A DNA stretch of 52,124 bases from positions 1 through 52,124 of the forward strand of contig QHUJ01000142.1 in NCBI GenBank assembly GCA_003221895.1, given 5' to 3'. Positions 28,640-51,401 of the stretch are shown here, piece by piece. Position 1 is the stretch's first letter; each line of letters opens with the position of its first letter. The position numbers were made by a program, and so were the translations under genes. The stretch is from Gemmatimonadota bacterium. GTDB taxonomy: Bacteria > Gemmatimonadota > Gemmatimonadetes > Gemmatimonadales > GWC2-71-9. The notes below the pieces were generated by a model. It was not told where the DNA came from. It made no database searches and worked only from the letters and a program-made list of their open reading frames with translations.

Positions 28640-29134
28640 ATGCCTAAAGACTCCAGTTCCACACGTTCGGGCATCCTCGCCGCGGCGGTAGAGACCCTGC
28701 AACGCGGGGGGGTCGAAGCCTTCACCCTGGAAGCGGTGGCACAGCGAGCGGGCGTGGTGAAGGGCCTGATCCTCTATCACTACGCATCACGAAGCCGGTT
28801 GCTGCAGGCCGCCGCATCTCAGATCGCCGAGAGTCGGACTGCCGCAATCACGCGTGTGTTAAGCAGTGCGAGCGGGACAGCCGCCCTCGATGCCTGTTGG
28901 GAGGAGCTGCGGCGCCAGGCAGAGGACGGGACGGCGCGTGCCTGGCTGAGTCTGTGCGCCGCCGGGCTTATTGACCGATCGGCCAATAACGGGGGATTCG
29001 AGGCGGCTGCCCGGGACGCGCTCATCGACGGGTGCGCCGCAGCGCTCGCCTCCGGAGTGCCCCTCGCGGATGTGCGCGACGCCTACGACGCCCTCTGGCT
29101 CGCGCTGCTCGAAGTGACCGAAAAGCAGCTCTAG
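28640..29134 (+). CDS. TetR family transcriptional regulator
   Basis: 164 residues with an N-terminal TetR HTH: SGILAAAVETLQRGGVEAFTLEAVAQRAGVVKGLILYHYASRSRLLQ, including the SxGxLYxYF-like motif (KGLILYHYAS). The C-terminal ligand domain is short and all-helical, with no recognised ligand class. It ends four bases over the stop of the convergent helicase gene. Confidence 0.9.
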   Translation: MPKDSSSTRSGILAAAVETLQRGGVEAFTLEAVAQRAGVVKGLILYHYASRSRLLQAAASQIAESRTAAITRVLSSASGTAALDACWEELRRQAEDGTARAWLSLCAAGLIDRSANNGGFEAAARDALIDGCAAALASGVPLADVRDAYDALWLALLEVTEKQL

Positions 29135-31692
29135 CGCCGCCTCGGGCGGCGGCCACCGCGCATCACCCGCGCCCGCTGACTGGATCCAAGAGTTCGCAAA
29201 CCCTTCCTCAGCTCGTCGAGTGAGTTCGCCCTCACCGCGTCGTGCTTTCCTCGCGTCACCGTGAACCGCACCGGCCGGTCGAAGGGCGGCAAATCCCGAG
29301 GGTGCAGCCGTCTCGCTTGGCCTTCTTTGAGGCGCAACCGGATCACTCCGCCGACGCCCTGCTCCACGTCGTAGTCCATCGGGACGCGATCGCCATACAG
29401 GAACACCGAGGAGGGCAGGGCATCGAGGCGGTGGCGCTCGCTCTCGGGGATCGCCGCATCCGGATCAAGCGTGATCCTGGCGGCGATGAATGCGTCCCAC
29501 GAGTTCACGTGGGTGAGCTGAGCAGCGAGTTGCTCAGCCAGCCTGTCGCCGTGGGCCTGATCGAGCGAGCCGCCCGAGCGACGCCAGTAGTGCCCGAAGC
29601 GCTCCAGCGCGCGGCGCACTTTTCCCTGATCGGGGTGCGGGGTCTCGCCTGCGAGCAGCGCCTGAACGAGCGCTCGCCTCGCGGAGTCGGCAAGGTCGGG
29701 AGGGAACGGGCTCGGCTGCGGCTCGACGTCCCGGTCGAGCGTGAAGCCGAAGTACTCCACCGTGCGAACGACCATCAACCCCTCGCGGCGGCGGTGCCGC
29801 TCGAACACGACCTCCGGCCGCCCGCGACGAGCGTTGCGGCGAATCGCCCGCTCCGGAATCTGCGTTCCCTCGATGCTGGCTCGCGGCACACCGAACCGAT
29901 CGGCGAAGTAGCGCAACGTCCCCGCAATGGCGCCCCAGCTGCCGCACACCGAGCTGCGACTCACCCGTGCCTCCCGACCGTCCGCTGTCTGCTCATCGAT
30001 CACGAGATCGAACGGCATGATTTTGGCCAAAAGGTCAGCAAAAGGCTCGAGCGTCTTGCTATTGCCATAGGGGAGTTTCACCGGCAACGGCAGCTCGAGC
30101 TGGCGATACACCGAAGCCGTGCCGAGCGCGATGTCTTCGATTGCCTTGACGAGAACCCCGCGCTCCTCGGCCCAACGCTCGATGTCCTCCTCCCGGAACA
30201 AGTGACGCGGCAAACCGTACACCTCGCCCAGGTAGCCATGCTTGTTCACGGCCTCGGCGTAGACGTTATAAGCGGTGATGTGATCGGACCCCGCCACGAT
30301 CAGTCCGCTGAGGTGCCGTTCCTCCCGGGTCATGCGATGCAGTGAGTCGATATTCGCGGCGACGGCGACGAGCGGGACGAGCGCTGGGTCGGCGTGGTAG
30401 AGCAACTCACCCCAGGGACGCTCCACCGGCATTGCCTCGACCTCACGACCGTAACTCGTTAGCCTGCCGTGCTCTATGAGACCTCGTTCGGTGAGTAACT
30501 CGACGATGTCGCGGTAGGCTCGACGGTCCAGCGGCACGGGCAAGTCCAATGCGGTTGCGTCGACACCGATTGCCGCGCACGTGATCGCCACGCGCTCCGC
30601 GTCCCCCGCCAACTGAAATTCAGGCGCCGTAGGACGCAGATCCTCGAACGCGAGGTCACGATCGCTCAGGATGTAGACCTCGCCGTGCTCCACCCGGCCG
30701 TGAACCCGGCCAGCCATCTGCAGGATCTCGTTGGCGCCGAGGTAGGACCGGGTGAGCACGTTTTTGCCGCGCTCGACCACGTTCGTGTAGCGCGCGTCGT
30801 AGATAACGACCGTATCGAGACCACGAATGTTGAGCGCCGACTGACCGGCGGCGGTCATCGCGAGCAGAAATGGCCGTTTGACCAAACCGTCAAGAAACGG
30901 CCGGATGACGCGAACGGGCTCACCGCCGTGATAGAAGGCCGTGGCGAGGTTGGGCCAACGATCCCCCACCTCACTCGCGATCTGCTCGACTTCAGCCCGC
31001 GTCGGTACGAATACCGCCACGCCGCGGCGCTCGCGCATGACTCTTTTTATGAAACGATCGTTCAAAAACTCGAGCGGCTGCTCCGCGAGGACGTTGACCT
31101 GGGCTGCCCGCGCCGGATCGAACGCCCGCGTCTCGAGCACCTCGGCGGAGCTGAGATAGTCGGCATAAAACGTCGGATCGACGGTCGCCGAGAGCCAGAT
31201 AAAGCGGCACCGCGTGCGTTTGCCGAGTGCGAGACAAAGCTCCATTTCCGCCGACGTCTGGTGGATTTCGTCGACGACCAGCGTGTCATGCGCGGTGATG
31301 AGACCGTCCTGGAACCAGCGGCGCGCGATCCCGGTGGTCACGATAACGACGTTCCACGTGGGCGTTTCCGGCGTCGCCTCGCGCTCGCGATTCACGACGC
31401 CCACCTTGAGTGGCGCCGTGAGAATCGTTTCCGCCATGCTGCGAATCGCCAGCGTCTTTCCGGTGCCGGTGCCCGCCACGATGCCAAACCCCTGCCCTGA
31501 GCCGGCCAGCCGCCGAATGTCAGAGCCATGCTCTCGCTCGAGCAGCGTCTCGAGCTTGAGCCCGAGGGCTAGCTCGATCGTCTCGCAGGCCGCTCGCGTC
31601 GGCGCGATGACAATGACTCGTCCCGTGGGAGGCTCAGCAGCGAGGAAAGCCTGAGGATCTGGTGGGAGGAAATGGTCGCGGGAGATTCGCAC
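29131..31692 (-). CDS. HrpA/HrpB-like DEAH helicase with divergent C terminus
   Basis: 853 residues. ATPase motifs: GTGTGKT (74-80), DEIH (141-144), SAT (168-170) and QMAGRVHGR as a motif VI-like box. In contrast to typical HrpA, the Walker A is preceded by a second strand-like segment (GRVIVIAPTRAACE) and the ratchet domain is less conserved. The C terminus carries YGDRVPMDYDVEQGVGGVIRLRLKEGQARRL, reminiscent of the HrpB/HrpA tail, followed by an Arg-rich end (RARVMRGGRRPRRR) suited to RNA binding. RNA helicase function is the likely role; substrate unknown. Confidence 0.85.
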   Translation of the reverse strand: MRISRDHFLPPDPQAFLAAEPPTGRVIVIAPTRAACETIELALGLKLETLLEREHGSDIRRLAGSGQGFGIVAGTGTGKTLAIRSMAETILTAPLKVGVVNREREATPETPTWNVVIVTTGIARRWFQDGLITAHDTLVVDEIHQTSAEMELCLALGKRTRCRFIWLSATVDPTFYADYLSSAEVLETRAFDPARAAQVNVLAEQPLEFLNDRFIKRVMRERRGVAVFVPTRAEVEQIASEVGDRWPNLATAFYHGGEPVRVIRPFLDGLVKRPFLLAMTAAGQSALNIRGLDTVVIYDARYTNVVERGKNVLTRSYLGANEILQMAGRVHGRVEHGEVYILSDRDLAFEDLRPTAPEFQLAGDAERVAITCAAIGVDATALDLPVPLDRRAYRDIVELLTERGLIEHGRLTSYGREVEAMPVERPWGELLYHADPALVPLVAVAANIDSLHRMTREERHLSGLIVAGSDHITAYNVYAEAVNKHGYLGEVYGLPRHLFREEDIERWAEERGVLVKAIEDIALGTASVYRQLELPLPVKLPYGNSKTLEPFADLLAKIMPFDLVIDEQTADGREARVSRSSVCGSWGAIAGTLRYFADRFGVPRASIEGTQIPERAIRRNARRGRPEVVFERHRRREGLMVVRTVEYFGFTLDRDVEPQPSPFPPDLADSARRALVQALLAGETPHPDQGKVRRALERFGHYWRRSGGSLDQAHGDRLAEQLAAQLTHVNSWDAFIAARITLDPDAAIPESERHRLDALPSSVFLYGDRVPMDYDVEQGVGGVIRLRLKEGQARRLHPRDLPPFDRPVRFTVTRGKHDAVRANSLDELRKGLRTLGSSQRARVMRGGRRPRRR

Positions 31693-32282: not shown

Positions 32283-33350
32283 TCAGTCTCCGAAGCTGAT
32301 TCCGAGGTCTCGGGCGGTCGTGATCGTGTCGGAGTCGAGCGGCACCCGTCGCGGCGTGGCGATCGCCTCGGCGATGGGAACAGCAACGATGCGCGGTGGT
32401 TCGAGCGCAACCATCATCCCGAACTTCCCGTCTGCCACCAGCCGGACGGCCGCGGCCCCGAAGCGCAGCGCCAGCACTCGATCGAATGTCGTGGGACCGC
32501 CGCCTCGTTGGAGGTGACCGAGCACCAGCGAGCGCGTCTCCTTGCCCGTCATCTGCTCGATCGAGTGCGCCACCTTGTCGGCTATCCCGCCGAGGCGCTC
32601 GTGCGCGGGGTCGATGAGCGAAACCGAGCCGCCTTTGGGAACGGCGCCCTCGGCCACGACCACGATGCTGAAGTGCCGGCCCTCCGCCTCGCGGCGGCGG
32701 ATCTTGTCGCAGACCTTGTTGATGTCGAAGGGAATCTCGGGAATCAGAATCACATCGGCCGATCCGGCGAGACCGGCGCTGAGCGCGATGAATCCGGCGT
32801 TCCGGCCCATCACTTCGACGACCATGACTCGTTCGTGGCTTTCGGCGGTCGAGTGCAGCTTGTCGATCGCGTCCGTGGCGGTCGCAACCGCGGTATCGAA
32901 TCCGAACGTCGCGACCGTGCCGCCGACGTCGTTGTCGATCGTTTTCGGGACGCCGACGACGGGAAGGCCCTTCTTCCAGAGATCGAACGCGATGCCCAGC
33001 GTGCCCTCGCCACCAATCGCGATCAGCGCGTCGAGCCGATTCGCACGAAATGAGTCGAACAGCTCCTGGGTACGATCGCGCTCCTCCCAGGATCCGTCGG
33101 GCCGTTGCGTCCGCCACTTCAGGGGATTCCCGCGGCTCGACGTTCCGAGGATGGTGCCGCCGAGATGGGTGATGCCACGGACTTCGTTGGGGCCGAGCGG
33201 CATGAGCTCGGACTCTCCGAGCAGGCTGCCGAATCCGCGCCGGACCCCGAAGCACTCCCAGCCGCGGTGGACGGCGGTGAGCACGGCGGCGCGGATAACG
33301 GCGTTGAGGCCGGGGGCGTCGCCACCCCCGGTGGAGATAGCGATTCTCAC
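32283..33350 (-). CDS. pfkA: 6-phosphofructokinase (group III type)
   Basis: Phosphorylates fructose 6-phosphate in glycolysis. 355 residues with STGGGDAPGLNAVIR, the catalytic PKTIDND segment, and IGGEGTLG at the phosphate donor site. The Lys in PKTIDND is typical of PPi and mixed-type enzymes, while Gly in GGEGT (not Asp as in GGEDT) points to ATP use; ATP-dependent group III is the best call. The GTG start at 33350 overlaps the stop of the SelW-like gene (GTGA), so the two are translationally coupled. Confidence 0.93.
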   Translation of the reverse strand: MRIAISTGGGDAPGLNAVIRAAVLTAVHRGWECFGVRRGFGSLLGESELMPLGPNEVRGITHLGGTILGTSSRGNPLKWRTQRPDGSWEERDRTQELFDSFRANRLDALIAIGGEGTLGIAFDLWKKGLPVVGVPKTIDNDVGGTVATFGFDTAVATATDAIDKLHSTAESHERVMVVEVMGRNAGFIALSAGLAGSADVILIPEIPFDINKVCDKIRRREAEGRHFSIVVVAEGAVPKGGSVSLIDPAHERLGGIADKVAHSIEQMTGKETRSLVLGHLQRGGGPTTFDRVLALRFGAAAVRLVADGKFGMMVALEPPRIVAVPIAEAIATPRRVPLDSDTITTARDLGISFGD

Positions 33351-33586
33351 TGCTTGCCGGAGACTGCCTCGCGGATCAGGCGCATCACCTCGCCGGGTTC
33401 GGCGTGGCGTTTAGCGGATTTCTTGGAGAACACACGCCGGCCGTCGAGATCGACTTCGAACACACCGCCGGAGGATTGAACCAGGCGAATCTCAGCGTGG
33501 GGGTACGTCTTGCGAATCTCGGCCGCCAGACCGGTGGCCCGTGGCTCGTAGTTTCAGATGACGCAGAATTCGATCGTGACGGTCAT
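33347..33586 (-). CDS. SelW/Rdx family selenoprotein (in-frame TGA = Sec)
   Basis: Reading from ATG 33586 to TGA 33349-33347 gives 79 residues if the TGA at 33556-33554 is read as selenocysteine: MTVTIEFCVIU, then NYEPRATGLAAEIRK and SSGGVFEVDLDGRRVFSKK. Cys8 and Sec11 form the CxxU redox site of the SelT/SelW/SelH (Rdx, PF10262) family, directly followed by the family motif NYxPRA and the GGxFEVxxDGxxVFSK strand pair. The family is a thioredoxin-like oxidoreductase fold, usual length 70-100. A SECIS-like hairpin follows the TGA. The conserved sequence continues without shift on both sides of the TGA, arguing against a pseudogene. Its stop overlaps the pfkA GTG. A TATCGT hexamer seven bases before the ATG could be a -10 box of a leaderless transcript. 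Confidence 0.85.
33520..33556 (-). promoter_or_regulatory. Bacterial SECIS-like hairpin in the SelW gene
   Basis: Counting from the base after the TGA: positions 13-15 (CGG) pair with 32-34 (CCG), 16-19 (GCCA) pair with 26-29 (TGGC), with a two-base bulge (GG) and a six-base loop CCGGTC. A GGTC loop about 22 bases after the codon is similar in place and bases to the E. coli fdhF SECIS as I remember it (AGGUCU). The pairing was done by eye. Confidence 0.6.
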
Positions 33587-33648
33587 GGCGTGAACGATAG
33601 TCGCGCTTGACACACCGCGCCACGGCGCCGACCTTGCGCCACACGCTC

Positions 33649-37262: not shown

Positions 37263-38624
37263 ATGCGCCCCCGAACGATTCTGCTCGTGCTCTGCCTCCT
37301 TCTCCTTCCCACTCTTTGCGCAGCCCAGCACAGCCATCAGTTCGAATTCGGAGCGTTTGGATCGTTCACCCGCTACGATCGGGCGTTCATGCTCGACAAC
37401 CAGATCGGTGGCGGTGGCCGGTTGGGCTATTTCTTCAACCCGACGGTGGGCTTTGAGTTCGACGTCGGATACCAGCAGCCATCGTCCGTGTCAGGCGGCG
37501 GCCCTGCGACGCTGAGCCTTGGCGGCGGCAGCGTCGTTTTCAACTTCGGCAGTAACAAAAACCTGTTCTATGTCCTGGGTGGGTACTCCCGCCTGAGCTT
37601 CACGGACAACGCCGCATACACCTTCGATGACAACGCTGTTCATGGCGGCATTGGCGACAGGATCTTCTTGAATGAACGGACGGCGCTCCGCCTCGAAGGC
37701 CGCGCCCTCTATGCCCCCAACACGAACCATACCGGCGGCGGCTGGGCCGGTCACATAGTTGCATCTGCCGGCCTCGCGATTTTCACCGGACCGAGCCCCT
37801 TCCACGACGCGGATGGCGATGCCGTGGACGACAAGAAAGACACCTGCCCCAATACACCTGCCGGCGCCACGGTGGACGCGAAGGGATGTCCGAGTGACGC
37901 CGATAAGGACGGCGTCTACAACGGCATCGACGCCTGCCCCAATACCGTCGAGGGCGCAGAAGTCGACGCGCGCGGATGCCCCAAGGATTCGGACAGCGAT
38001 GGTGTCTATGACGGCATCGACAAGTGCCCGGGCACGTCGACCGCCGGAGGCGTTCATGTCGACGCGGCTGGCTGTCCGATCGACAGCGATCACGATGGCG
38101 TCCCGGATGGCCTCGACAAGTGTCCCGCAACTCCAGCGGGCATCGAAGTCGATGCGGTCGGTTGCCAGCGCGTCATCGACAGCGACGGCGACGGCGTAGA
38201 CGATAGAAAAGACAAATGCCCCGGTACGGCTGCGGGAACGCGAGTCGACTCGGCGGGCTGCCCGATTCTGTTCCCGGAGGCCAAGACGGCGGTGGTGCTG
38301 CGCGGTGTGACGTTCGAGCCGGGCCGCTCCACGCTCAAACCGGATTCCTATACGATTCTCGATCTCGTCGCGACGTCGCTGCTCGGCAATCCCGACATCA
38401 GGATCGAGATCGCCGGTCACACGGATAACACGGGATCGGTGGCCACTAACACGCGCCTGTCCCAGGCTCGCGCGGACGCTGTGCGCACCTATCTGGCGAG
38501 CAAGGGCGTGACGCCCGATCGCATGGTCGCGAGGGGCTACGGCCCGACGCAGCCGATCGCGCCGAACACAACCACGGACGGCCGTGCGTTAAACCGCCGC
38601 GTCGAGCTACGGAAGCTCAACTGA
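37263..38624 (+). CDS. OmpA family protein with five TSP3 repeats
   Basis: Outer-membrane protein of 453 residues: signal peptide (LLVLCLLLLPTLCAAQ), beta-barrel of about 170 residues (FEFGAFGSFTRYDRAF), five thrombospondin type 3 repeats of about 30 residues with DxDxDG calcium-binding loops and two Cys each, and an OmpA C-terminal domain binding peptidoglycan (IEIAGHTDNTGS, NRRVEL). ATG has GGAGAGAG upstream. It has a paralogue 16 bases downstream and both are probably one transcript. Confidence 0.93.
   Translation: MRPRTILLVLCLLLLPTLCAAQHSHQFEFGAFGSFTRYDRAFMLDNQIGGGGRLGYFFNPTVGFEFDVGYQQPSSVSGGGPATLSLGGGSVVFNFGSNKNLFYVLGGYSRLSFTDNAAYTFDDNAVHGGIGDRIFLNERTALRLEGRALYAPNTNHTGGGWAGHIVASAGLAIFTGPSPFHDADGDAVDDKKDTCPNTPAGATVDAKGCPSDADKDGVYNGIDACPNTVEGAEVDARGCPKDSDSDGVYDGIDKCPGTSTAGGVHVDAAGCPIDSDHDGVPDGLDKCPATPAGIEVDAVGCQRVIDSDGDGVDDRKDKCPGTAAGTRVDSAGCPILFPEAKTAVVLRGVTFEPGRSTLKPDSYTILDLVATSLLGNPDIRIEIAGHTDNTGSVATNTRLSQARADAVRTYLASKGVTPDRMVARGYGPTQPIAPNTTTDGRALNRRVELRKLN
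37806..38267 (+). repeat. Five TSP3 coding repeats
   Basis: About 90-base units encoding D-x-D-x-DG...CP(N/G)TxxGxxVDxxGCP; the third is two residues longer and the fifth has extra residues. Confidence 0.8.
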
Positions 38625-38640
38625 GCTGGAGGAAGGACTT

Positions 38641-40326
38641 GTGAGGCAACTTGCGGCCGTACTGCTGACAGTCGCCCTGGCCTGTTCCGTCATCTCACCC
38701 GTAGCGGCGCAGAACCAGCGCCGCTACGAGGTGGGGTTGTTCGGGTCGTACACGAAATACGACAACGCCTTCACCGGCCTGGGCAACGAACCCGGGGGCG
38801 GCGCGCGGTTCGCATACGCCTTGAACTCCAAGGTCAGTCTCGAAGTCGAAGCCGTGTTCCAGCAACCCGTGACGGGCCTGACGTCAGGCGAGCTTTCTCC
38901 GATCATCGGGGCGGCGAGTGTCATCGCCTATCCGTTCAACAAAGACCGGATGTCGCTCTACGTCCTGGGCGGGTACTCACGACTCGATTTCGGCAATGCG
39001 GCTCCGTACGACTTCACGGATGGCGGTTTCCACGCGGGAGCCGGAGCCAAATTCTTCATCAGCTCACGCATGGCCCTGCGGCTTGAAGGACGGGGCATCT
39101 ACACATCCCAGACAAAGAGCACGTTTGCCACGGGAGCCGTGACCCACATCGTGGGATCGGCCGGGCTGTCGTTCTTCCAGTCGGGCGGCGGCGCTCCATC
39201 GGCCGACGAGGACCACGACGGCGTCTCGGACAAGAAAGACGCCTGCCCCGGCACACCGGCTGGCGCGAAGGTCGACAGCAAAGGCTGCCCGGTCGACGAT
39301 GACAAAGACGGCGTCGTGAACGGTATTGATGCCTGCCCTAACACACCCGCCGGAGCGACGGTCGATGCCAGAGGCTGCCCGCACGACTCCGACGGCGACA
39401 AGGTGTTCGACGGCATCGATCAATGCCCCGACACGCCGCCCGGTGTCGCGGTCGACGCGAAGGGTTGCCCGCCTGATTCCGATAGCGACGGCGTGAACGA
39501 CGGCCTCGACAAGTGTCCGAACACGCCGGTGGGCGCCACCGTCGATGCGACAGGATGCCCGATCGATTCCGACCATGACAACGTCTGGGACGGCCTCGAC
39601 AAGTGTCCCGATACGCCGGCCGGTGCGGTGGTGGATGCGACCGGCTGCCCCGCCGACTCGGACGGCGATAGGGTGCCCGATGGCGTCGATCGCTGCCCGG
39701 ACACGCCTCCGAACACACCGGTCGACTCCTACGGCTGCCCGGCCGACACGGATCATGATGGCGTGGGCGACGGCTTCGACAAGTGCCCGAATACGCCGCC
39801 CGGAACCCGGGTGGATGAGAACGGTTGCCCGATCGCCAAGGACACCGACGGCGACGGCGTGATCGACCCCGACGACCGCTGTCCCAATACACCGAAGGGC
39901 TCACGCGTTGACGAGCACGGCTGCCTCGTGCTGTTCGAGACGGTCGCGCCCGCGGTTGGCGGCGCGGCTGCGGCGACACCGCCGCGTCCGACGCTCATTC
40001 TCACCGGAGTCAATTTCGAAACCGGACGCTCGGTCCTGACGGCATCGTCGTACGCCGCGCTCGATCAGGTGGCGGGATCACTCGTGGCGAATCCGGAAAT
40101 TCGCATCGAGATTGCCGGCTACACCGATTCCGTCGGAACCCCCCGCTTTAATCTGGGCCTGTCCATGGGGCGCGCGGCTGCGGTACGCGCGTACCTGGCA
40201 CGCAAAGGCGTGAGCCCGTATCGGATGCGGGCGCAGGGCTACGGGGCGTCAGGATACATCGCCCCCAATAACACGCCACAGGGACGGGCGCAGAACCGGC
40301 GCGTCGAGCTGCACAAGCTGAACTAG
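38641..40326 (+). CDS. OmpA family protein with eight TSP3 repeats
   Basis: 561 residues, GTG start preceded by GGAGGAAGG. Same architecture as the gene before it: signal peptide (VALACSVISPVAAQ), barrel (YEVGLFGSYTKYDNAF, similar to the neighbour's FGSFTRYDRAF), eight TSP3 repeats instead of five, and OmpA domain (IEIAGYTDSVGTPRFN, NRRVEL). The usual GHTD reads GYTD in this copy. The pair arose by duplication and then differed in repeat number, so the distance from membrane to peptidoglycan differs between them. Confidence 0.93.
   Translation: MRQLAAVLLTVALACSVISPVAAQNQRRYEVGLFGSYTKYDNAFTGLGNEPGGGARFAYALNSKVSLEVEAVFQQPVTGLTSGELSPIIGAASVIAYPFNKDRMSLYVLGGYSRLDFGNAAPYDFTDGGFHAGAGAKFFISSRMALRLEGRGIYTSQTKSTFATGAVTHIVGSAGLSFFQSGGGAPSADEDHDGVSDKKDACPGTPAGAKVDSKGCPVDDDKDGVVNGIDACPNTPAGATVDARGCPHDSDGDKVFDGIDQCPDTPPGVAVDAKGCPPDSDSDGVNDGLDKCPNTPVGATVDATGCPIDSDHDNVWDGLDKCPDTPAGAVVDATGCPADSDGDRVPDGVDRCPDTPPNTPVDSYGCPADTDHDGVGDGFDKCPNTPPGTRVDENGCPIAKDTDGDGVIDPDDRCPNTPKGSRVDEHGCLVLFETVAPAVGGAAAATPPRPTLILTGVNFETGRSVLTASSYAALDQVAGSLVANPEIRIEIAGYTDSVGTPRFNLGLSMGRAAAVRAYLARKGVSPYRMRAQGYGASGYIAPNNTPQGRAQNRRVELHKLN
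39205..39930 (+). repeat. Eight TSP3 coding repeats
   Basis: Units of about 90 bases, with near-identical words such as GGCCTCGACAAGTG and GTCGATGCGA; the last unit is slightly longer. The reading frame is kept throughout. Confidence 0.85.
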
Positions 40327-49787: not shown

Positions 49788-51401
49788 ATGCAGGCAATGG
49801 CGATCAAACGGTGGAATGCTGTCGTGATGCTGGCACTCCTAGCCGCGCCCGGATCGGCGCAGCAACCGGTCCCTGTCGATACCGCGGCAATAGATGCACA
49901 CCTGCGGTTTCTCGCGAGCGATCTGCTCGAGGGTCGCGCGCCGGCGACGCGCGGGGGCCAGCTCGCCACGGCGTACATCGCCGCCTGGTTCCAGGCGCTC
50001 GGACTCGAACCCGCCGGCGCCAACGGCTCGTACTTCCAGCCCGTCGCATTGGTGGGGATGACTCCCCAGCCCACGCTCGGCTGGGGCAAGCCAGGGACTC
50101 CTACCGACACCCTCGCTTACCGCGATCAGTTCGTCGCCTGGGCGGAGCGGCCCGAGGCGGACATTGCGGCTGATGGCGAAGTGGTGTTCGTCGGATACGG
50201 AATCCGCGCGCCCGAATGGCAATGGGACGATTACAAGGGAACGGATCTGCACGGCAAAGTGCTGCTGATGCTCGTCAACGATCCGGGGCTCGTCGACTCC
50301 ACCGTGTTCCTCGGGAAGATTCTCACCTACTACGGGCGCTGGACCTATAAGCTCGAAGAAGCCGCACGGCAGGGGGCGGCCGGCGCGATTCTCGTGCATA
50401 CAACCGAGAGCGCGACGTATCCGTGGGAAGTCGTCCGCGGCTCGTGGTCAGTCGAGCAATTCAAGCTCGACCAGCCACGCTCGCCAAGCATCGCCTTTGC
50501 GGGGTGGGTGACCGAAGGCAGCGCGCGCGACGCTCTCGCGCGGGCCGGGTTGAATCTCGACTCGCTGACCCGGGTCGCCGCGCGGCGCGATTTCCGGCCG
50601 GTCCCAACCGGCATTCAGGCTGCGGTGCGCGTACACAGCGCCCTGCGACACGTGCAGTCCGAGAATGTTGCAGCCCGCCTGCCCGGGCGGGACAAGCAGC
50701 TCGCGGCCGAGGCCGTACTCATCACGGCGCACTGGGATCACAAAGGAATCGGCCCCGTTGTGAAAGGCGACTCGATTTACAACGGCGCCGAAGACAACGC
50801 GTCGGGCATCGCGGCAATGCTCGGTGTGGCTGAAGCGCTCACGCACCTGCCACGCACTGCGCGCTCGATCATGTTGGTCGCGACCACTGCCGAAGAGAGC
50901 GGCTTGCTCGGAAGCGAGGCATACGTGCAGCGGCCGCTCCTGCCGCTCGCGCGGACGGCGGCGGTCCTCAATCTCGACGTGACCAACGTGCGCGGCGCCA
51001 CGCGTGACATCGGTGGGCGCGGTGGGGATCGCTCGACCTTGGGTCCGGTGTTCGCGGCAGCCGCCCGAGCGGAGTCGCTTACGGTCGACTCAGAACCGGA
51101 TCTCCGGGGCGCCTTCTTTCGCTCGGATCATTTTCCATTCGCGCGCGCCGGCGTGCCGGCGCTCTCGATATTTGCCGGAGACAACTTCGTAGGACGTCCG
51201 AAGGGTTGGGGGACGGAACAGGAAAACATTTACAACGCGCAGCGCTACCATCAGCCGAGCGATGAGTATCAAGCGTCGTTCCGCTACGACGGCATGGCGC
51301 AGGAGGTTCGAGTCACGGTGCGGACGGCGCAGGCCGTCGCCAACAACCGGACGCTGCCCACGTGGCTGCCGTCGTCGGAATTCCAGCGACCGCAGCCGTG
51401 A
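49788..51401 (+). CDS. M28 family zinc aminopeptidase
   Basis: 537 residues, exported (AVVMLALLAAPGSAQ). A protease-associated (PA) domain is inserted near residues 100-260, and the M28 catalytic domain shows all metal-site segments: ITAHWDHKG (His, Asp), NGAEDNASGIAAM (Asp), ATTAEESGLLGSEAY (Glu, Glu) and FRSDHFPFARAGVPAL (His). It cleaves N-terminal residues from peptides in the periplasm or outside. ATG 49788 with GGAGA upstream. Confidence 0.93.
   Translation: MQAMAIKRWNAVVMLALLAAPGSAQQPVPVDTAAIDAHLRFLASDLLEGRAPATRGGQLATAYIAAWFQALGLEPAGANGSYFQPVALVGMTPQPTLGWGKPGTPTDTLAYRDQFVAWAERPEADIAADGEVVFVGYGIRAPEWQWDDYKGTDLHGKVLLMLVNDPGLVDSTVFLGKILTYYGRWTYKLEEAARQGAAGAILVHTTESATYPWEVVRGSWSVEQFKLDQPRSPSIAFAGWVTEGSARDALARAGLNLDSLTRVAARRDFRPVPTGIQAAVRVHSALRHVQSENVAARLPGRDKQLAAEAVLITAHWDHKGIGPVVKGDSIYNGAEDNASGIAAMLGVAEALTHLPRTARSIMLVATTAEESGLLGSEAYVQRPLLPLARTAAVLNLDVTNVRGATRDIGGRGGDRSTLGPVFAAAARAESLTVDSEPDLRGAFFRSDHFPFARAGVPALSIFAGDNFVGRPKGWGTEQENIYNAQRYHQPSDEYQASFRYDGMAQEVRVTVRTAQAVANNRTLPTWLPSSEFQRPQP

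Follow-up and report, generated by a model that had tools for sequence, protein, structure and literature searches.

The question raised by this locus is whether a short minus-strand frame, interrupted by a TGA at its eleventh codon and situated directly before the gene for 6-phosphofructokinase, encodes a selenoprotein and, if so, what its association with a glycolytic gene signifies. The frame lies in a stretch of 52,124 nucleotides of a soil bacterium of the Gemmatimonadota (contig QHUJ01000142.1), which is called the window in the following. SelW-like selenoproteins of bacteria were described in 2005-2008 (PMC1088965, PMC1794560, PMC2398784); they rank among the selenoproteins found most widely in marine metagenomes (PMC2398784), possess few cysteine forms in selenocysteine-using organisms (PMC1794560) and are listed with a CxxU motif and one selenocysteine (PMC13188914). 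In Campylobacter jejuni, SelW (CJnc60) is a protein of 80-81 residues with UGA read as selenocysteine, the full-length translation of which has been confirmed by Ribo-seq and proteomics (PMC11955535).

A search of the open-access literature for SelW together with phosphofructokinase, and for Gemmatimonadota together with selenocysteine, retrieved nothing specific, and the SelW-like papers searched are silent both on Gemmatimonadota and on a conserved position ahead of pfkA. SelW-like selenoproteins are themselves a known bacterial family, of which the gene described here is an additional member; what appears to be new, being undescribed in the open-access papers searched, is the occurrence of selW in most selenocysteine-using Gemmatimonadales and its place before pfkA. 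With a probability of about 0.96, the locus represents a genuine SelW-like selenoprotein gene, whereby SelB and a bacterial SECIS (bSECIS) element would decode the UGA, the product would be a CxxU protein and the gene would form a two-gene unit with pfkA.

The selW-like gene and its product

The coding sequence occupies positions 33350-33586 of the minus strand, starts with ATG at 33586 and gives, down to 33350, a SelW/Rdx protein of 79 residues with a CxxU motif and the predicted selenocysteine at residue 11. It reads MTVTIEFCVI, TGA (33556-33554), NYEPRATGL...GGVFEVDLDGRRVFSKK...SGKQ; the part after the in-frame TGA is NYEPRATGLAAEIRKTYPHAEIRLVQSSGGVFEVDLDGRRVFSKKSAKRHAEPGEVMRLIREAVSGKQ, followed by the terminal TGA at 33347-33349. 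An earlier note made from the letters of the window had described this minus-strand ATG frame with its FCVI-TGA-NYEPRATGL pattern, and was correct in every detail. Genes of this kind tend to escape ordinary gene prediction, which meets a frame broken off after ten codons.

The comparison with PF10262 proposed in that note was performed with the TGA read through, and the product scored above the cut-off of this Pfam Rdx model (75 bits, E=5e-21, threshold 22.6) as well as of TIGR02174 (CXXU_selWTH; 64.3 bits, cut-off 34.2) and NF041051, the model of Campylobacter SelW, which is the best NCBIfam match (96.6 bits, curated cut-off 88). The gene is the sole Rdx match in the whole genome and contains one in-frame TGA. 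What could arise by chance is far exceeded by this match together with a TGA kept in 77/77 orthologues.

The protein shares its domain, its length and the CxxU motif with the bacterial SelW-like proteins of the PF10262 Rdx family. By sequence, the PDB contains relatives such as the Rdx proteins 2fa8, 3dex and 2oka. The AlphaFold model (pLDDT 86) displays the beta-alpha-beta-beta-beta-alpha order of a thioredoxin-like fold, and the CxxU is located where the first strand ends, as is usual for the family. The top PDB structure matches of the model are SelW-family proteins, with 2fa8 as the nearest (TM 0.86) and mouse SelW, 2npb, at TM 0.78. The cysteine-type Rdx structures 2fa8, 3dex, 2obk and 2p0g thus share the fold with mouse SelW and the present model (TM 0.78-0.86), although 2fa8 and 3dex possess CxxC instead of CxxU and the aligned bacterial proteins are about 22-37% identical. 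In keeping with the assumption made for its family, the protein would most likely act as a thiol/selenol oxidoreductase.

Upstream of the gene (minus strand, 33587-33611), GACTATCGT or a similar sequence is situated approximately 7 nt before the ATG in congeners, and no Shine-Dalgarno match precedes the selW ATG in the congeners. This arrangement suggests that the transcript may be leaderless and start from a -10-like box at GACTATCGT.

Conservation of the in-frame TGA

Among 101 related genomes, selW was found in 77, which span three families of Gemmatimonadota and are mainly uncultured Gemmatimonadales. The codon at 33554-33556 (minus strand), within the motif Cys8-V-I-Sec11, is TGA in 77/77 orthologues and TAA or TAG in none, and CxxU is invariant among the aligned orthologues. 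Relatives lacking cysteine or selenocysteine at this site, which had been named as evidence against the reading, were looked for, and all 77 orthologues carry TGA there. Downstream of the TGA, dN/dS is ~0.07 in ten congeners.

Equally, a cysteine version of the orthologue was not found among the related genomes. L110, a stop-free protein of similar score, was considered as such a version and dismissed as a distant Rdx protein, and other stop-free Rdx proteins of Gemmatimonadota (such as L002 and L103-L105) are likewise not selW orthologues.

The source assembly is fragmented into 250 contigs and some relatives (L089, L091) appear degenerate, so that a TGC or TGT miscalled as TGA, or a gene in decay that acquired a nonsense mutation, has to be considered; yet the identical TGA recurs in 77 separate genomes from three families, the sequence past the TGA is under strong purifying selection and the hairpin that follows covaries, which leaves sequencing error or pseudogene formation with a vanishingly small probability. 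The interpretation of the UGA as a selenocysteine codon, which the earlier note had put forward, is supported on the level of sequence by the 77/77 TGA codons, the low dN/dS, the covarying hairpin and the presence of SelA, SelB and SelD.

L091 (G027:C1, from about 1104087, plus strand) is a selW from which ~30 residues are deleted in frame; it retains CxxU, the hairpin and the position before pfkA. L090 / L191 (G039:C55:623-862, plus strand) is a second SelW-like gene; it is divergent, contains two in-frame TGAs and reads IEY-U-AE-U-EYQSHAARV..., a UxxU SelW with selenocysteine predicted at both redox positions and a hairpin downstream, whereas in reviews SelW-like proteins appear exclusively with CxxU and a single selenocysteine. 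The gene is located on a 5.1-kb contig and might therefore be a contamination; no other close copy of a UxxU SelW was found among 395 genomes of the phylum.

A hairpin under RNA-level selection

The hairpin with a GGTC loop after the TGA, as it had been noted, is present: it occupies positions 33521-33539 of the minus strand, starts 14 nt downstream of the selenocysteine TGA and has the DNA loop GGTCT. Counted from the base after the UGA, nucleotides 15-21 pair with nucleotides 27-33 and enclose the loop GGUCU (33528-33532), which across orthologues is mostly [GA]GU[CU]U. In the window itself, the stem contains an A.C mismatch (-11.1 kcal/mol), and the hairpin is not the minimum-energy structure of the 42-nt stretch, for which an alternative fold reaches a slightly lower energy (-14.7). 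All seven stem pairs are formed in 52/77 loci and the hairpin is part of the minimum-energy fold in 55/77. A continuous outer extension of the helix (positions 7-10 with 36-39) was also considered, and was unsupported on testing.

The folding of the mRNA proposed in the earlier note was combined with an analysis of covariation, and the covariation at synonymous sites supports the hairpin. Positions 15 and 33 fall on the third bases of an Arg codon and an Ala codon, respectively, and in 76 distinct sequences they combine as G-C (45), A-T (16), C-G (6) and T-A (1), with a mutual information of 0.87 bits compared to 0.21 bits for the runner-up among 136 third-position pairs. Codon usage in the loop is equally biased: the Gly codon is GGT in 44/44 cases versus 45/433 Gly codons further along the same genes, and the Ser codon is AGT in 26/26 versus 7/284 Ser codons further along. 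Finally, codons 5-11 after the UGA, which correspond exactly to the hairpin, are the sole run without any difference among the ten congeners. From covariation, codon bias and codon invariance, the predicted hairpin is a bSECIS under RNA-level selection, and its covarying synonymous sites provide a clean example of such selection within a coding frame.

Selenocysteine machinery of the genome and its relatives

That this lineage makes selenoproteins, as had been claimed, is supported by the predicted machinery, by the tracking of this machinery by selW and by a SelD that also contains a UGA. SelA (524 bits, contig C98), SelB (L094, G000:C143, a frame of 643 residues) and SelD (401 bits, contig C220) are encoded in the same genome. 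SelD (L095, G000 contig C220, UGA near 51185, minus strand) has the frame SHGAG-U-ACKLG, and downstream of its UGA a hairpin presents GGUCU once more as the loop; SelD is, as predicted from this frame, a UGA selenoprotein and an independent second use of the same hairpin signal. L094 and related SelB proteins match TIGR00475 mainly over positions 1-341, and their C-terminal half diverges in many of the genomes, so that the SECIS-binding part may differ.

Of the components that were to be looked for, selA, selB and selD were thus found, and tRNA-Sec is missing from this assembly (best match 1.3e-7, below the cut-off); Rfam and ARAGORN searches of the window itself gave nothing. In 9/9 congeners, tRNA-Sec was recovered with about 75-82 bits, and ARAGORN confirmed it, with the anticodon UCA, in three of them. 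In the congener G003, tRNA-Sec adjoins a gene whose homologue in the genome of the window ends contig C180, and its other flank is the start of contig C197; the expected place of tRNA-Sec therefore coincides with an assembly gap. Over the 101 genomes, selW co-occurs with SelB/tRNA-Sec (Fisher p=3.8e-9), with both in 76 genomes, selW alone in 1, the machinery alone in 11 and neither in 13, in a table compiled by hand in which tRNA-Sec was counted only at E below 1e-12. This points to a wide use of selenocysteine in a soil phylum that is deep and has received little study.

An in-frame TGA that is read through would also be expected if TGA stood generally for an amino acid (Trp or Gly) in an altered genetic code without SelB-dependent recoding. 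Against this, TGA terminates selW itself, here and in many orthologues, SelA, SelB and SelD are present, the TGA falls on the site at which the family has Cys or Sec, and a local bSECIS is conserved; this alternative is hardly credible. Pseudogene, sequencing error and altered genetic code were rejected alike, on the conservation of the TGA, selection, the hairpin and the use of TGA as the selW stop.

For decoding as selenocysteine, SelB, by inference from the known SelB system, would deliver Sec-tRNA-Sec at the selW UGA, directed by the bSECIS hairpin with its loop GGUCU 14 nt downstream. The product would have 79 residues, a thioredoxin fold and a redox site of the CxxU type, and we infer that selenocysteine is actually incorporated at this UGA.

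Association of selW with pfkA

The gene pfkA (32283-33350, minus strand) encodes a 6-phosphofructokinase (PFK_mixed-like), with 341 bits for PF00365, 430.3 bits for TIGR02483 against a cut-off of 430.55, and a score over the cut-off for NF002872 (ATP-PFK subfamily). Its GTG start (33350-33348) overlaps the stop of selW by four bases, GTGA, as had been noted correctly, and because of this overlap selW and pfkA are most likely co-transcribed and translationally coupled, with selW as the presumed first gene of a two-gene unit. The C. jejuni SelW, the model of which is matched here above its cut-off, differs in this respect, since its transcript was listed as a small RNA and the present gene leads a pair with pfkA.

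The arrangement is widely preserved. In two partly overlapping collections, pfkA directly follows selW in 134 loci with a median gap of 0 nt; in the set of 101 genomes it is directly downstream in 68/76 informative loci, of which 34 overlap, 20 have a spacing within 25 nt and 14 are further apart. At the overlapping loci, pfkA starts with GTG or TTG in 25/34 and lacks a Shine-Dalgarno match in 26/34, features that fit translational coupling. In eight informative loci the orthologue is located away from pfkA, and the pairing is therefore not obligatory. Beyond pfkA, the next large gene of the conserved neighbourhood encodes a DEAD/HrpB-like helicase (29131-31692, minus strand), which comes next after selW in most examined loci without adjacent pfkA; with the same next large gene where pfkA is absent, selW holds its place. 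A gene with an in-frame UGA and a glycolytic gene thereby form a conserved pair, and this order-wide conserved neighbour offers a concrete lead on the function of bacterial SelW.

The earlier note had also claimed co-expression of the redox protein with phosphofructokinase, a claim for which the support consists of conserved adjacency and overlap. Similarly, the relatives adjoin pfkA as it had anticipated, and carry selenocysteine instead of the expected cysteine. Co-expression of selW with pfkA is likely, a functional coupling to glycolysis is plausible, and a physiological link with phosphofructokinase may exist. That SelW influences PfkA by a redox effect, or that selenium gates the translation of pfkA, is an unlikely hypothesis.

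Such a gate would take the form of a selenium switch, in which the UGA, besides encoding SelW, controls the overlapping pfkA: with little selenium, ribosomes would halt at codon 11, short of the pfkA start, and with selenium present they would read through and re-initiate on pfkA. If true, selenium supply would control the entry into glycolysis in Gemmatimonadales by a translational switch on a metabolic gene. The overlap in 34/68 loci, mostly with GTG/TTG starts and mostly without a Shine-Dalgarno match, is in line with this idea, as is the ATG start of pfkA in 13/15 selW-less genomes. However, pfkA is >25 nt away in 14 loci and not adjacent in 8, and starts poor in Shine-Dalgarno matches are also found in selW-less genomes, so that this trait is not specific to coupling. 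Given the strong purifying selection on SelW, the gene could not be accounted for by a switch alone, and the existence of such a switch seems rather doubtful.

On the other hand, selW and pfkA might be together by descent, with no functional link beyond shared transcription. Selenocysteine-less genomes, among which are single-contig chromosomes, retain pfkA and have neither selW nor a cysteine form, and no selW relic was found before pfkA in 15 selW-less genomes; likewise, selW persists in the eight loci without adjacent pfkA, with the helicase next in most of those examined. Mere synteny is thus a possibility of some weight, but not the favoured one, as adjacency is maintained in 68/76 loci of three families and the stop/start overlap is often retained although protein identity has fallen to about 50-60%.

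Elsewhere in the window, positions 37263-40326 of the plus strand encode, in tandem, two adjacent OmpA-like proteins of the outer membrane in which DxDxDG-type (thrombospondin type 3-like) segments recur.
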